Under the pieces are notes generated by a model. That model was not told the origin of the DNA. It did not search any database and saw nothing but the letters and a program-made list of their open reading frames with translations. A stretch of DNA of 54,229 bases. Source: a virus. The translations under genes were made by a program, and so were the position numbers. Shown here in pieces: positions 12,318 to 49,272 of this stretch. How positions within the stretch are numbered: position 1 is the first letter of the stretch; each line of letters opens with the position of its first letter. The DNA lies in the IMG/VR virus record IMGVR_UViG_3300037485_001431, positions 1 to 54,229 of that record; one strand, given 5' to 3'.

Positions 12318-12367
12318 TAAAAGAAACCAAAACTTTGTGTAGTTGATGTATTGAAACTTTATGTTTA

Positions 12368-12375
12368 TATTTTTG
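12368..12375 (+). promoter_or_regulatory. Possible TAnnTTTG promoter of the primase gene
   Basis: TATTTTTG lies 3 nt before the ATG at 12379, close to the 4-nt spacing seen at several other genes. A well-placed TTG upstream element is not clear (nearest candidates at 12343 and 12351), so this is tentative. Confidence 0.35.
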
Positions 12376-12378
12376 GGG

Positions 12379-13278
12379 ATGGACGAAAACGAAGCTTTAG
12401 TTGAATTATTGGAAGAGGTATTGGGTGACCACGGCCTCCATTACCCCAATCGTGGACAAATCTCGTTCAACTGTCCGGTATGTGATGATGGTAGAAATAA
12501 ACATAATCTTGAGGTTAACTACATAAATAATGTTTATAAGTGTTGGGCTTGTGGTGATTATGAGGGTACTCATGGATCCTTAGGTAAAATATTTGATAAG
12601 TACGGTAATAGAAAACAGAAAAAACTATACCAAGTATTAAAACCTGAAACCGTAGTAAAACGAGAGAAAAAGAAAAAAGCGTTAAAACTTCCTGACGGAT
12701 TCACCCTATTCAAAGACGCAAGTCCTGTATATCCTGTTAGACGACAAGCCATAAATTACCTACATAATCGGGGAATTTCCGATTATATGATTGAAAAGTA
12801 TCAAATTGGATTCTGTGATGTTGGTGATCACGGTGGGAGAATCATTATACCTTCTTACGATAAAAGTGGTGAGTTGAACTATTATATTGCAAGAAGTTGG
12901 AATCCAATGAGTAGAGCAAAATATAAGAACCCTGAAGCAGAAAAAGATAAAATCATATTTTGGGAAAGTCTAATTGACTGGTCTAAAGACATATATCTTG
13001 TTGAGGGAGCGTTTGATGGATTATTTGTGGATAACTCAATTCCAATGTTGGGTAAACACATGTCTCAGTTATTATTTGAAACCATATATACAAAGGCAAA
13101 AGGTGATGTTATAATATGTTTAGATGCTGACGCATGGGAGAACTCCGTCAAACTTTATCACGAGTTAAATGGTGGTGAATTATGGGGGAGAATAAAATTA
13201 GTGAGATTACCGAATGAATCTGATATTGCGGATTTAAGGGGTGAGATAAAAGATGAATATTACCATATAATAAAATAA
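12379..13278 (+). CDS. dnaG: DnaG-type DNA primase
   Basis: A 299-residue protein with a Zn-binding domain near the N-terminus (Cys32-x2-Cys35 in FNCPVC and Cys55-x2-Cys58 in KCWAC). It then has a Toprim-type core: E209 in VEGAFDG and the D-x-D of LDADAW near 249-251. It is much shorter than cellular DnaG and lacks a visible helicase domain, as is usual for phage primases that work with a separate helicase. An in-frame ATG at 12361 would add six residues. The start at 12379 is preferred because a possible TAnnTTTG box overlaps the longer version and because MDENEAL begins a normal helix. Confidence 0.8.
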   Translation: MDENEALVELLEEVLGDHGLHYPNRGQISFNCPVCDDGRNKHNLEVNYINNVYKCWACGDYEGTHGSLGKIFDKYGNRKQKKLYQVLKPETVVKREKKKKALKLPDGFTLFKDASPVYPVRRQAINYLHNRGISDYMIEKYQIGFCDVGDHGGRIIIPSYDKSGELNYYIARSWNPMSRAKYKNPEAEKDKIIFWESLIDWSKDIYLVEGAFDGLFVDNSIPMLGKHMSQLLFETIYTKAKGDVIICLDADAWENSVKLYHELNGGELWGRIKLVRLPNESDIADLRGEIKDEYYHIIK

Positions 13279-13311
13279 TTGTTATTATTCACACTTTTAT
13301 AAAATTTAATA

Positions 13312-13318
13312 TATTTAT
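13312..13318 (+). promoter_or_regulatory. TATTTAT-type promoter box
   Basis: TATTTAT ends 4 nt before the ATG at 13323 of the small RHH-like gene. Confidence 0.5.
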
Positions 13319-13322
13319 TAAT

Positions 13323-13481
13323 ATGGGAAGAAAGTTAAAAAAAGAAGAGGATAAGAAAACAAAAGTATCTGTTGCATTAGATAGAGAACTTTTAGAGTAT
13401 TATAGAACCTTACATATTAACCTTTCTTCACTGGTTAATAAACTACTTTTAGATTATAAAAATGGAAACAAAGGTTTGTAA
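13323..13481 (+). CDS. Ribbon-helix-helix-like small protein, 52 aa
   Basis: A basic N-terminus (MGRKLKKEEDKKT) is followed by a strand and two helices typical of an Arc/MetJ-type fold (KVSVALDRELLEYYRT, then NLSSLVNKLLLDY). The protein resembles the 54-residue gene at 32526 in length and pattern. Both overlap a homing endonuclease by exactly 20 nt. A role as repressor of the endonuclease or of its own promoter is inferred. Confidence 0.65.
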   Translation: MGRKLKKEEDKKTKVSVALDRELLEYYRTLHINLSSLVNKLLLDYKNGNKGL

Positions 13482-14019
13482 AAAATGCTTGGAAGAAAAA
13501 CAGTTATGTGAGTACAGTAAAGACAAATATAGTAAAGACGGATTTAGATTTAGATGTAAAGAGTGTACCAGAGAAGAATATAAAAAGTTTTACTACTCTA
13601 ATATTGATAAAGAAATACAAAGACAAGTATCCTACCAAAAAAATAATTTAGAATCAGTTAGAAAAAGTAGGAACGAAAGACATCAAAAAAAATATAATAA
13701 TGATGTTTTATATAAATTAAAATTTAATATTAGAAATAGGGTTAAACTCTTTTTAAAGAGTGCCAACTTTGATATAAAGGTTAATAACACATATAATATT
13801 GTTGGTTGTACGCCTGAAGAACTTAAAGAACATATTGAAAAACAATTTACAGATGGAATGAGTTGGGACAATCACAATCACAACGGATGGCATATTGATC
13901 ATATAATTCCACTATCATCGGCAAATACTGAAGAAGAGGTGTTTAAATTATGTCATTACACAAACTTACAACCACTATGGTGTGAGGAAAATTATAAAAA
14001 AGGAAAAACAATATTATGA
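13462..14019 (+). CDS. HNH homing endonuclease
   Basis: A 185-residue protein. An N-terminal zinc-finger-like part (CKKC near residue 5 and CKEC near 31) precedes a basic helical region. The C-terminal HNH nuclease core reads WHIDHIIPLSSA, then HYTNLQPLWCEENYKKG. This is the layout of free-standing phage HNH homing endonucleases. It begins inside the RHH-like gene (20-nt overlap) and its stop shares ATGA with the nuclease gene downstream. It probably targets an allele of a neighbouring replication gene. Confidence 0.8.
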   Translation: METKVCKKCLEEKQLCEYSKDKYSKDGFRFRCKECTREEYKKFYYSNIDKEIQRQVSYQKNNLESVRKSRNERHQKKYNNDVLYKLKFNIRNRVKLFLKSANFDIKVNNTYNIVGCTPEELKEHIEKQFTDGMSWDNHNHNGWHIDHIIPLSSANTEEEVFKLCHYTNLQPLWCEENYKKGKTIL

Positions 14020-14879
14020 ATATAGAAGAAACGGTATTAGATATTAGGCGAATTTTAGAAGAAAAAAGAAAAGAATTTCAATTAACTTTTGAGGAAGAAT
14101 CCCACAAATATACGATGTTAGGATTAGATGGTAAATTAACGGATAATTGGCCCTCAGTGTCTAAGGTTATGAAGGCTTTTTATGATGAATTTCCCTCAGA
14201 AAAGAAGGCTCTTGAGATGTCGGGTGGAAATCCTGATAAGGCTGATGAATTACTAAATGAGTGGAAGTTATCGGGTGAATACTCCACTAATATTGGAAGT
14301 AGAGTTCACTTCTTATTAGAAAAACACTCATTAGACATGTTTAATTATGAGAAAGCAATAAGAGAACCGATATATGAATGTGATCCATTACAAATATTAA
14401 AGAGTGACTCTATGGTTACTGCTGGAAAACAATTTTTAGAGGTAATGAAAGAAAGAGGAGCTCATTTAATAGATACTGAAATAGTGTTAGGTCATCCTGA
14501 ATTGGGTTATACAGGTCAGGGGGATACCGGTTGGTTAATAGAGAATAAAAATAAAGATGGGTATGGTTTTATAATAACAGATTATAAAACAAATAAAGAA
14601 AAAAACTTTATTACCCAAAAGTATATTAAACCGATGAGAACCCCTTTTGAATATTTACCAAACAATGCCTTAGGTCATTACCACACCCAATTACCATTTT
14701 ATGGTAAATTACTGTTGAAAATGTTAGAAGGGACTAAGTATGAAAATATTAAAATTCTTGGGTGCATTATTGTTAGACTAACAGATGAAAGAGAATTTAT
14801 TGAATATAGAGTTGAAAGAAAAACAATCAACACAATTCTTGAAATGGATATGAAACAATATTTGACTAAACTTAAATAA
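14016..14879 (+). CDS. PD-(D/E)XK superfamily nuclease
   Basis: A 287-residue protein. The central part has the RecB/Cas4-like nuclease signature: a Glu in DTEIVLG, GQGDTGWL supplying the Asp, and ITDYKTNK supplying the D-x-K. Upstream are SVSKVMKAFYDEF and the VHFLLEKHS helix often seen in RecB-type exonucleases of phages. Likely an exonuclease in recombination or host-DNA breakdown. Start shares ATGA with the HNH gene. Confidence 0.7.
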   Translation: MNIEETVLDIRRILEEKRKEFQLTFEEESHKYTMLGLDGKLTDNWPSVSKVMKAFYDEFPSEKKALEMSGGNPDKADELLNEWKLSGEYSTNIGSRVHFLLEKHSLDMFNYEKAIREPIYECDPLQILKSDSMVTAGKQFLEVMKERGAHLIDTEIVLGHPELGYTGQGDTGWLIENKNKDGYGFIITDYKTNKEKNFITQKYIKPMRTPFEYLPNNALGHYHTQLPFYGKLLLKMLEGTKYENIKILGCIIVRLTDEREFIEYRVERKTINTILEMDMKQYLTKLK

Positions 14880-31354: not shown

Positions 31355-32272
31355 ATGAACGCTGACAATTATTACGAAAGTTTGGGAGTCCCCGAAACAG
31401 CAACACAAGACGAAATAAAAAAGGCGTACAGAAAGTTAGCCAAAGAAAATCACCCCGATGCCGGAGGTAATGAGGAAACATTCAAAAAGATATCGGTAGC
31501 ATATGATACCTTAGGTGATAACCAAAAGAGACAACAATACGACCAACAAAAAAACAACCCATTTGGTAATTTTGGGGATATATTCTCTTCAATGTTCAAT
31601 CAACAAAGACCCCAACAACAACAAAGACAAAATCATACAACCACTATTTCTGTGAACATAGGTGTATTAGATTCATATAAGTCAGATAAGAAAGCGTTAA
31701 CATATAAAAGACAAATACCTTGTGATCCTTGTAGTGGTACAGGTGGGGATAAAAAAATATGCCCTACTTGTGGTGGGTCAGGATCTGTCATTAGACAAGT
31801 TGGCACAGGAATGTTTGTACAAGTTGTTCAAATGGGGTGTGACACTTGTCGTGGTACCGGTAAAATGATAGTAAACGCATGTTTCCTTTGTCAAGGTGTT
31901 GGAACCAAAGGTGAGGTTAAAACACTTGAGATTCAATTACCTCATGGTATAGATAATGGTCAGTTTGTTAGACTACAAGGAATGGGTGACTATAGAAATG
32001 GTGTATTTGGTGATTTAATTGTTAGGTTGAATGTTGAACCACAAGATGGGTTTGATAAGGTTGAGAACCATTTAATATATAATGCCTTTTTAAATATGGA
32101 CGACCTTAAAAATGGTAGTTTACTTGTACCTCATCCTGATGGAGAACTAACTTTAAAATTACCAAAAGTAGTTGACACATCAAGACCTTTAAGAGTTAAA
32201 TCAAAAGGATTCAAGTTAGATACCGTTGGGGATCTAATGGTTAATCAATATGTTAAATTTGAGAGGGATTAG
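31355..32272 (+). CDS. dnaJ: DnaJ (Hsp40) co-chaperone
   Basis: A 305-residue protein with a J domain carrying HPD at residues 33-35 ([10 protein letters not shown]) and a Gly/Phe/Gln-rich linker. The zinc region has four CxxCxGxG-type repeats ([32 protein letters not shown]), followed by a C-terminal substrate domain. It is about 70 residues shorter than typical bacterial DnaJ, mostly at the C-terminus. It could recruit host DnaK for virion assembly or replication. Confidence 0.9.
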
Positions 32273-32430
32273 AATAGAGAGTTAACGTCTCTAAATATTG
32301 CGTATAGACCATACAACGCCAAAGCAAATATTATACCACCAGCGGTCAAAACCAACGTTTGAGTATTTTTAATTTGTTTACTATCTTTACAAGTAGCACA
32401 TTTAACTTCGGTTGCCTTTTTCTCTTCCAT
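32269..32430 (-). CDS. Small membrane protein with CxxC, 53 aa
   Basis: [18 protein letters not shown] is followed by one membrane segment ([20 protein letters not shown]). Its stop overlaps the dnaJ stop on the other strand. A TATTTAT box on the minus strand (32461-32467) lies 30 nt before the ATG. Function unknown. Confidence 0.55.
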
Positions 32431-32467: not shown

Positions 32468-32513
32468 TTAAAATAATATTTATTATTTGACGCACTTTTT
32501 CTATATTTCTTAA

Positions 32514-32520
32514 TATTTAT
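32514..32520 (+). promoter_or_regulatory. TATTTAT-type promoter box
   Basis: TATTTAT ends 5 nt before the ATG at 32526. A second copy sits at 32477-32483. Confidence 0.5.
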
Positions 32521-32525
32521 ATAAT

Positions 32526-32690
32526 ATGATCAAACCAGGAAGACCAAAAAAAAATGAAGAAAATAAAAAGGTAAAATACGGTATTAGTATTGACCGATTT
32601 TTATTTGATAAAATGAAAAATGAGGAGATCAGCATTTCCAAATTTATCCAAGAATTGGTGAAGGAACATTATGATAAGAAAAAAATTTAA
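32526..32690 (+). CDS. Ribbon-helix-helix-like small protein, 54 aa
   Basis: A basic start (MIKPGRPKKNEENKK) is followed by YGISIDRFLFDKMKN and SISKFIQELVKEHYD, a strand-helix-helix layout. It matches the 52-residue protein at 13323 in spacing and hydrophobic pattern. It overlaps the LAGLIDADG gene by 20 nt. Probable DNA-binding regulator. Confidence 0.65.
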   Translation: MIKPGRPKKNEENKKVKYGISIDRFLFDKMKNEEISISKFIQELVKEHYDKKKI

Positions 32691-33354
32691 TGAAGATTAT
32701 TTTGAGGTAATAGATACTCCTGAAAAGGCTTATTTACTTGGTTTTATTTTTGCGGACGGATGTTTAATTGATAACCCAAAAGAATATAGATATAAATTAA
32801 ACATCAAGATTCATAATAAAGATGAAGATATACTTAAAAAGTTTATAACTTTATTAGATAGTGAAGTTAAAATATGGAGAAGTAACAATAGAGATATTTG
32901 TGAAATTGGGTTTTCTAGTAAAAAAATGATAAATGATTTAAAAAATATTGGACTACACCAAAATAAAACATATACAATAGATTACCCCAAAATTGATGAA
33001 AAAATTGAAAGACATTTTTTGCGAGGATATTTTGATGGTGATGGGTGTATTAGAATTAGTGAAGATAAAAGAGACCAATCTAAACGAGGGGACTTGAGAA
33101 TTGTTGGGGGTTCAGTTAAGTTTATAGAAACTTTAAATGAAAGAATGGGTAAACTATTCGGAGTTAATGTTAATAAACTTTATGGTCCAAAGAATAAACA
33201 ATATAGATTTATTGGTTGGGCAGGTATGTCGGACATTGAACGAATTTACGATGGATTTTATTCTGACACAGACTTGTTTTTAACTAGAAAAAAGATTATC
33301 TTTGATGAGGTTATTGATATAATCAGAGATAAAAATAAATACAGAAAAAAATAA
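32671..33354 (+). CDS. LAGLIDADG homing endonuclease
   Basis: A 227-residue protein with two LAGLIDADG-type helices, YLLGFIFADGCL near residue 20 and FLRGYFDGDGCI near 112, each with the catalytic acidic residue. This is a monomeric two-motif enzyme. It starts inside the RHH-like gene and ends 5 bp before the Dam-type methyltransferase, whose allele may be the target. Confidence 0.85.
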   Translation: MIRKKFNEDYFEVIDTPEKAYLLGFIFADGCLIDNPKEYRYKLNIKIHNKDEDILKKFITLLDSEVKIWRSNNRDICEIGFSSKKMINDLKNIGLHQNKTYTIDYPKIDEKIERHFLRGYFDGDGCIRISEDKRDQSKRGDLRIVGGSVKFIETLNERMGKLFGVNVNKLYGPKNKQYRFIGWAGMSDIERIYDGFYSDTDLFLTRKKIIFDEVIDIIRDKNKYRKK

Positions 33355-33359
33355 TAATT

Positions 33360-34199
33360 TTGATTTCATATATTGGTGGTAAGAGTAGAATAGGTAAATG
33401 GATCGTTCCATTTTACGATAAAAATATGGAGGTATATGTAGAGACCTTTGGCGGAATGTTTTGGTGTTTTTTTAATATGGACCTAAAACAGTTTCCTAAT
33501 TTAAAGAAAGTTGTGTATAACGACTTTAACCCGCTGAACTACAACCTCTTCAAATGCGTTCAAAACCCAACAGAACTATTGAAAGCAATTAACGCGATTG
33601 ATTGTCAAAAGTTGGGTGTAGAACCAACCCCACCGATCTATAAAGAACAATTTATCAGCTTTCAGGCTGAATTATTTGCTGAGAATTTCAGCGTAGAACC
33701 TGGCAATTATGAGGTTGCGGCAAAATACGTTTATATTCTTACACAAGTTTTTAGTGGATCAAAACCAGAAAAATCAAATTTTATTGACTTAAAAGGGAAA
33801 TATAAATCAAAATATCTTACCTTTAGAGACAAGTTAATGAAACCTGATTGGATTGAGCATTTCCTTAAGATTACAGAAGTGGAGAATATGGACTTTGCTG
33901 ATGTGATTGAGAAATATGATTCACCAACAACTTACATTTATTTGGATCCACCTTATTGGAAAACAGAGAATTACTATTCAAATCATGATTTTGATAGAGA
34001 AGACCACGAACGTTTGGCGAACGTATTACACAACGTACAAGGTAAGTTCTCATTGTCTTATTATGACTTTGACATTCTTAAAGAATGGTTTCCTGAGAAC
34101 CAATATACTTGGGTTAAGAAGGAGTTTGCTAAAGCGGCTTCAGCTAAAAAAGGGACCAAACAAAACATGGGTGAAGAACTACTTATTATGAATTATTAA
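33360..34199 (+). CDS. Dam-type DNA adenine methyltransferase
   Basis: A 279-residue D12-class enzyme: YIGGKSRIGKW near residue 4 (AdoMet binding), VETFGGMF, VVYNDFNPLNY, and D196-P-P-Y (catalytic). No ATG precedes the conserved N-terminus, so the start is taken as TTG at 33360. A TAATTTTG box overlapping it may be chance. GATC specificity is possible but cannot be read from sequence. Confidence 0.85.
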   Translation: MISYIGGKSRIGKWIVPFYDKNMEVYVETFGGMFWCFFNMDLKQFPNLKKVVYNDFNPLNYNLFKCVQNPTELLKAINAIDCQKLGVEPTPPIYKEQFISFQAELFAENFSVEPGNYEVAAKYVYILTQVFSGSKPEKSNFIDLKGKYKSKYLTFRDKLMKPDWIEHFLKITEVENMDFADVIEKYDSPTTYIYLDPPYWKTENYYSNHDFDREDHERLANVLHNVQGKFSLSYYDFDILKEWFPENQYTWVKKEFAKAASAKKGTKQNMGEELLIMNY

Positions 34200-38994: not shown

Positions 38995-39001
38995 ATAAAT
39001 A
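38995..39001 (-). promoter_or_regulatory. TATTTAT-type promoter box (minus strand)
   Basis: TATTTAT on the minus strand, 4 nt before the ATG at 38990. Confidence 0.5.
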
Positions 39002-49265: not shown

Positions 49266-49272
49266 ATAAATA
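49266..49272 (-). promoter_or_regulatory. TATTTAT-type promoter box (minus strand)
   Basis: TATTTAT on the minus strand, 5 nt before the ATG at 49260. Confidence 0.5.

Follow-up and report, generated by a model that had tools for sequence, protein, structure and literature searches.

The window, by which we mean the whole 54,229-nucleotide stretch of viral DNA analysed (positions 1 to 54,229 of IMG/VR record IMGVR_UViG_3300037485_001431), contains a small gene overlapping a LAGLIDADG homing endonuclease gene. A first-pass annotation described the pair as a 54-residue gene overlapping the LAGLIDADG gene by exactly 20 nt, and the coordinates agree. The pair is flanked by a small minus-strand gene at 32269-32430 and by a Dam-type methyltransferase gene at 33360-34199. 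The features of this element, element A, are as follows (RHH = ribbon-helix-helix).

32473..33360, + strand: full extent of inserted element A, borders approximate; empty-site relatives have a gap of ~60 bp here
32480..32499, + strand: operator-like element of family A, TTATTATTTGACGCACTTTT, core ACGCACTTTT, kept upstream of family-A RHH genes whatever the nuclease
32514..32520, + strand: TATTTAT box, promoter-like and phage-wide, with the ATG 5 nt further on
32526..32690, + strand: RHH-A gene, 54 aa, putative autorepressor
32671..32690, + strand: overlap of RHH-A and nuclease genes, 20 nt, containing the nuclease ATG; front-end DNA identity stops here
32671..33354, + strand: LAGLIDADG homing endonuclease, 227 aa, with two intact motifs, YLLGFIFADG and FLRGYFDGDG

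The 227-aa protein matched Pfam LAGLIDADG_3 (2.7e-10) and LAGLIDADG_1 (1e-7), and both motifs have Asp. The right border of the element is the methyltransferase start codon. This start (window 33352-33365) is TTG in the window and in other copies with a type-1 LAGLIDADG nuclease; the empty relative L326 reads ATG ATT TCA there.

A sister cassette with a different nuclease lies between a primase gene (12361-13278) and an exonuclease gene (14016-14879).

13279..13298, + strand: operator-like element of family B, TTGTTATTATTCACACTTTT, an imperfect form of TTGTGAATATTCACACTTTT
13312..13318, + strand: TATTTAT box, with the ATG 4 nt further on
13323..13481, + strand: RHH-B gene, 52 aa, matching the N-terminal DNA-binding part of Pfam CcdA (1.6e-5, above cut-off)
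13462..14019, + strand: HNH/endonuclease-VII-like nuclease with a zinc ribbon, 185 aa

The sister nuclease is an HNH/endonuclease VII protein (phrog_1035, 2.5e-19; HIDH motif) and not a GIY-YIG enzyme. Its gene and the RHH-B gene overlap by 20 nt. When the window was scanned for small ORFs sharing 10-29 nt with a larger one, no 20-nt pair other than these two came up. Among isolates, the primase is closest to that of Flavobacterium phage vB_FspM_immuto, at 34% identity, and this sequence match suggests a Bacteroidota host for the window phage.

In the first-pass annotation the two nucleases, of unrelated families, were taken to share one regulatory front end marked by a TATTTAT box 4-5 nt upstream. 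The nucleases are indeed of the LAGLIDADG and HNH families and the boxes do lie 5 and 4 nt before the ATG, but the sequence TATTTAT was found 3-8 nt before the ATG of 13/76 predicted window genes where 0.2 would be expected. It is a phage-wide start-proximal signal rather than a cassette signature, so the box alone makes no shared regulatory front end. Other sites in the window include 1563, 7423, 38995-39001 (minus strand), 43989, 45253, 49266-49272 (minus strand) and 52906. The box is possibly a promoter giving leaderless messages, a promoter role being assumed from its position. The specific part of the front end is the operator-like sequence upstream of the box, which was absent from the earlier description.

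Two insertion sites

Comparison with related contigs indicates that both window cassettes are insertions. At the methyltransferase site, many relatives (L292, L293, L304, L310 and L326 among them) have ~60 bp in place of the cassette. The cassette is missing from the primase-exonuclease site in about two dozen relatives, some of which share sequence, and in most of them the two genes abut, while L361 has RHH plus HNH and L360 has RHH alone. Empty-site relatives miss the RHH gene and the nuclease gene together. The borders are sharp enough for these to be called insertions, and the majority state and the anatomy of the element point to gain as the direction and not loss. Occupation of one specific site, with the alleles of relatives empty, is the pattern of LAGLIDADG homing endonucleases, and an intergenic nuclease that overlaps the upstream ORF (here by 11-35 nt) and is absent in relatives is that of the T4 seg/mob type; both patterns were found. 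An Rfam scan of 12-36 kb found no RNA, so no intron was detected there. The intergenic site between the small minus-strand gene and the methyltransferase is a hot spot. A family of ~160-aa minus-strand genes often fills this gap instead of the cassette (L283, L285, L287, L303 and L331).

Spread of the cassettes and exchange of their nucleases

The IMG/VR viral contigs were searched with both small proteins, with both nucleases and then with a profile. This gave 112 distinct RHH genes and thus more than 100 examples beyond the window, as looked for in the first-pass annotation. A complete overlapping nuclease follows in 97, five run off the contig, and in ten the nuclease is absent or broken while RHH is intact, so that 10/107 RHH genes have no nuclease despite having room for one. 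A tblastn search of 50,697 isolate phage records gave no RHH match, though the low-complexity filter may have masked lysine-rich hits, and no RHH match was confirmed in GTDB species-genome contigs.

Presence of the small gene depends on how close the nuclease is to those of the window. All 32 LAGLIDADG relatives of at least 61% identity have an RHH gene (28 were found automatically as intact and four are zinc-ribbon chimeras with RHH further upstream), against 0/48 at 29-42% identity. Likewise, RHH accompanies the 7/7 best HNH relatives (45-89% identity, full length) and 0/7 of the weaker ones (45% or less, partial or distant).

The overlap of exactly 20 nt holds for both window pairs and is the commonest length (57/112), but overlaps of 23 nt (16 cases), 11 nt (11), 14 nt (8), 17 nt (6) and a few other lengths also occur, with a range of 11-35 nt in full cases. 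In every cassette with a nuclease the overlap is 2 mod 3, which puts the nuclease in a constant +1 frame. This constancy raised the possibility of a frameshifted fusion of RHH and nuclease, but a stop usually closes the nuclease frame 3-5 codons ahead of its ATG, no fused ORF was found and the longest RHH ORF is 55 aa, and the idea was rejected. An ATG that arises from NAT-GNN codons commonly stands at codon position 2, which would account for the constant phase otherwise.

Three unrelated nuclease folds were found behind the small gene, namely LAGLIDADG (several subtypes), HNH, and NUMOD3 plus TnsA-like PD-(D/E)XK. Family A is followed by LAGLIDADG type 1 (that of the window), LAGLIDADG type 2, helix-turn-helix plus LAGLIDADG, zinc-ribbon plus LAGLIDADG, or zinc-ribbon HNH; family B is followed mainly by zinc-ribbon HNH, and also by NUMOD3 plus TnsA-like PD-(D/E)XK. 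The first-pass annotation had proposed looking for small RHH genes directly upstream of GIY-YIG, HNH and LAGLIDADG genes; they were found before the latter two, while no GIY-YIG partner was present among the cassettes found.

Exchange of the nuclease is seen most directly in three family-A cassettes carrying LAGLIDADG type 1 (L222), HNH (L227) and LAGLIDADG type 2 (L247). They share 143-144/145 nt of the RHH gene before the nuclease ATG and are 87-95% identical in the 60 nt upstream, whereas past the RHH stop identity is 49-54%, which is background. The 99% DNA identity of the front end therefore collapses inside the overlap between cassettes with unrelated nucleases. A similar contrast exists in family B, where L274 (PD-(D/E)XK) and L276 (HNH) have 140/142 nt the same. 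As to whether the small protein is more conserved than the nucleases, a point raised by the first-pass annotation, median identities were 76% for RHH against 34% for the nuclease in family A and 61% against 49% in family B, and RHH was the more similar of the two parts in 88% of family-A and 84% of family-B pairs. On the RHH-A tree the nuclease type takes 19 changes compared with 20.2 for shuffled labels, but the tree is short and weakly supported and the count is rough. The conclusion holds without this tree because the 99%-identical trio shows the swap directly.

All 34 family-A copies with a clustered downstream gene precede the same Dam-type methyltransferase. Their nucleases are LAGLIDADG type 1 (15), LAGLIDADG type 2 (7), helix-turn-helix plus LAGLIDADG (4), HNH (3) and zinc-ribbon plus LAGLIDADG (2), with no recognised nuclease in three, and L346 and L349 have HNH exactly where the window has LAGLIDADG. 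Since family A swaps at one genomic site, its nucleases are replaced in place and the whole cassette is not hopping freely. The proposal of a modular, exchangeable cassette is thus upheld as far as the exchange of unrelated nucleases goes, with the restriction that in family A the exchange is confined to one site. Its probable route is recombination in the shared front end on one side and in a shared downstream flank on the other; in family A that flank is the methyltransferase gene.

Several copies depart from the usual architecture. In L216 and L264 the nuclease is a chimera of an HNH-family zinc ribbon and a LAGLIDADG core, which constitutes a second level of module exchange. In L271 (322-2457; L145 is on the same contig) the gene that an RHH-B front end overlaps, over 17 nt, encodes a 712-aa C5 DNA methyltransferase, which itself holds an intein with its own LAGLIDADG domain; this copy probably derives, at a methyltransferase site, from a cassette that lost its nuclease. 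Intact RHH genes without a working nuclease are present in L110/L360, L204, L207, L134, L226 and L249, with L110, L204 and L207 at the usual sites.

The small protein and the element upstream of it

The two small proteins of the window are related. BLASTP aligned RHH-A and RHH-B with 14/44 residues identical (E 2e-8), and the profile comparison proposed in the first-pass annotation, here of 13 family-A with 17 family-B members, gave a probability of 96.8% and E 2.3e-10. An AF2 model of the 54-residue monomer (pLDDT 78) showed an extended segment followed by helices at 24-32 and 37-51, that is a strand-helix-helix order. Foldseek against the PDB placed Arc repressor best and CdbA next, with VapBC also listed; the E-values were weak (4 to 6), as expected given that the query is a 54-residue monomer. 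Judged by the model, the small proteins look like ribbon-helix-helix proteins with the fold of the Arc/CopG/MetJ superfamily. Pfam CcdA was matched at E<=0.1 by 17/17 family-B members, the match covering profile positions 1-33 of 71. The C-terminal toxin-binding domain and CcdB partner that mark CcdA proteins were not found, the partner being a nuclease. Searching the RHH profile against PDB sequences returned designed repeat proteins and chance hits only and no RHH relative, and PADLOC and NCBIfam gave RHH no assignment above cut-off. The median dN/dS of the RHH genes was 0.15 (A) and 0.21 (B), and by this measure their coding sequence is under purifying selection.

In 88/97 cassettes the sequence CTTT lies 17-18 nt before TATTTAT, with a 16-nt element directly before CTTT. 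The element differs with the class of RHH protein: KKTKVSVAL proteins have TTGTGAATATTCACAC, KKQSISIAL TGTTAAAAATAACAAC, KKVKIGVSI TTCATAATAATTACAC, KKVKVSVAI TTGATACTATTAYTAC and KKVKYGISI (family A) TTnACGCAC. In family B, divergence of the element correlated with that of the beta-strand residues (partial r 0.39, 0/500 permutations, controlled for helices, N terminus and flank); the values for the helix residues and the nuclease class were 0.09 (42/500) and 0.02. In family A, the elements were no more similar between copies with the same nuclease than between copies with different nucleases. The element type thus tracks the putative DNA-contact strand of RHH and not the nuclease.

Among members of the larger RHH family this element is frequently an inverted repeat. 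A general palindrome score could not tell the upstream region apart from AT-rich sequence that had been shuffled, and a fixed-register symmetry test took its place. In classes KSA/SSA symmetry peaks at one centre abutting CTTT (0.68 vs a median of 0.35), e.g. TGTGAATATTCACA. The same test found no clear inverted repeat in the family A operator TTnACGCACTTTT, and the operator claim is weakest here. When all viral contigs were searched for the combination of operator A, box and ATG without regard to the protein, 39 distinct sites came up, of which 32 are followed by RHH-A and two more have RHH-A at contig edges or with another ATG. The window has a single copy each of the core operators ACGCACTTT and TCACACTTT, in both cases at the cassette to which it belongs.

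Possible roles of the front end and comparison with known systems

We consider it fairly probable that the cassette is a free-standing homing-endonuclease element in which an autorepressor distinct from the nuclease, an operator and a promoter control expression and the nuclease is coupled translationally. The front end would consist of the operator-like element, the promoter-like box and the gene for a 50-55 residue RHH protein, which probably binds the operator as a dimer or tetramer and so represses its own promoter. The nuclease ATG lies within the last RHH codons and translation of the nuclease probably hangs on ribosomes finishing RHH. A burst of nuclease would be made only on entry into a cell or genome without repressor; the nuclease would cut the empty site and the cassette would be copied in via recombination repair. 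The nuclease part can be replaced by unrelated nucleases.

Autorepression alone does not account for RHH genes persisting without a nuclease (10/107). More tentatively, and with a distinctly smaller chance of being right, the RHH front end may be a regulatory socket that resides at one fixed position in the phage genome and into which different homing nucleases plug, the repressor acting in trans as immunity to incoming homologous cassettes. If this were true, trans immunity would account for intact RHH genes outlasting a lost nuclease, and the operator classes would be incompatibility groups among selfish elements.

It is doubtful that the front end is an expression or recombination platform only, a promoter plus a translated leader whose RHH protein is irrelevant to the nuclease. 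The exchange of nucleases beneath a constant front end would suit such a platform, as would T4 segC, segF, mobA and mobC, which overlap upstream genes by 11-24 nt without any regulator (PMC2988022), but neither purifying selection on RHH nor an upstream element covarying with the beta strand is expected of a passive leader. A toxin-antitoxin-like pair, in which RHH would inhibit the nuclease by direct contact as well as repress the operon, recalls the CcdA match and the type II operon-like gene order and overlap. This is improbable: the CcdA match is confined to the N-terminal part, the protein ends where a toxin-binding tail would begin, the pairing of one RHH with nucleases of several unrelated folds is hard to square with a specific interface, and precise fixed-site insertion with empty-site relatives fits homing elements. 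We give still less credence to the idea that RHH regulates other phage promoters while the nucleases hitchhike beside it; RHH does sometimes occur without a nuclease (L110, L204 and L207), but the core operators are single in the window, at their own cassettes, and RHH and nuclease are jointly missing in empty-site relatives. Least credible is that the nucleases are phage resolvases or superinfection-exclusion nucleases in a regulated operon and not homing enzymes, for although the HNH partner is annotated as endonuclease-VII-type, the LAGLIDADG, NUMOD3 and HNH architectures, the presence or absence at exact sites and the nuclease decay in some copies speak against it.

The cassette is a real, widespread and new variant of free-standing homing element; an RHH-controlled homing cassette was not found described in the open-access literature searched. 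How a selfish endonuclease is kept from harming its carrier genome is known mostly from a handful of T4 cases, in which the device differs each time. In the present cassettes a single small repressor module appears to work with three unrelated nuclease folds and to be inherited independently of them. Homing regulation would thus be a portable part, the role of repressor type as immunity between competing elements is directly testable, and the RHH/operator pairs form a natural data set for the RHH recognition code.

The small proteins resemble the CopG, Arc and CcdA repressors in size, in strand-helix-helix order, in the putatively autoregulated two-gene layout, in the CcdA N-terminal match and in the Arc fold match. 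CopG-RepB is an autoregulated two-gene arrangement of this kind. The cassette differs in having neither a CcdB or Rep partner nor a toxin-binding tail, its partner being a homing-type nuclease of several folds. Rhizobium phage 16-3 (p099-p100; L389, 993-1953) has an endonuclease VII gene in overlap with the gene of a small DNA-binding regulator, but that regulator is a helix-turn-helix protein (HTH_3/HTH_31) and the arrangement is at most a parallel case.

T4 segC, segF, mobA, mobC and mobE are likewise free-standing nuclease genes between phage genes, with an overlap in four of them. Seven T4 free-standing endonucleases are promoter-less, and segC, segF, mobA and mobC overlap the upstream ORF by 11-24 bp (segC by 20 bp), for which low-level translation by ribosome scanning has been proposed (PMC2988022). 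With its ATG close to the RHH stop, the nuclease of the cassette follows the same pattern. The upstream ORF in T4 is an ordinary phage gene, whereas the cassette has a dedicated DNA-binding gene and its own promoter-like box, which arrive and leave with the insert. The closest function is that of I-TevI, the T4 intron homing endonuclease, whose expression is limited by binding to an operator overlapping its own promoter (PMC2988022); both would be homing endonucleases under transcriptional autorepression. That the upstream element follows RHH and not the nuclease class would argue against I-TevI-type operator binding by the nuclease. I-TevI itself represses, through its homing-site binding domain, while in the cassette a separate RHH protein would do so on behalf of unrelated nucleases.
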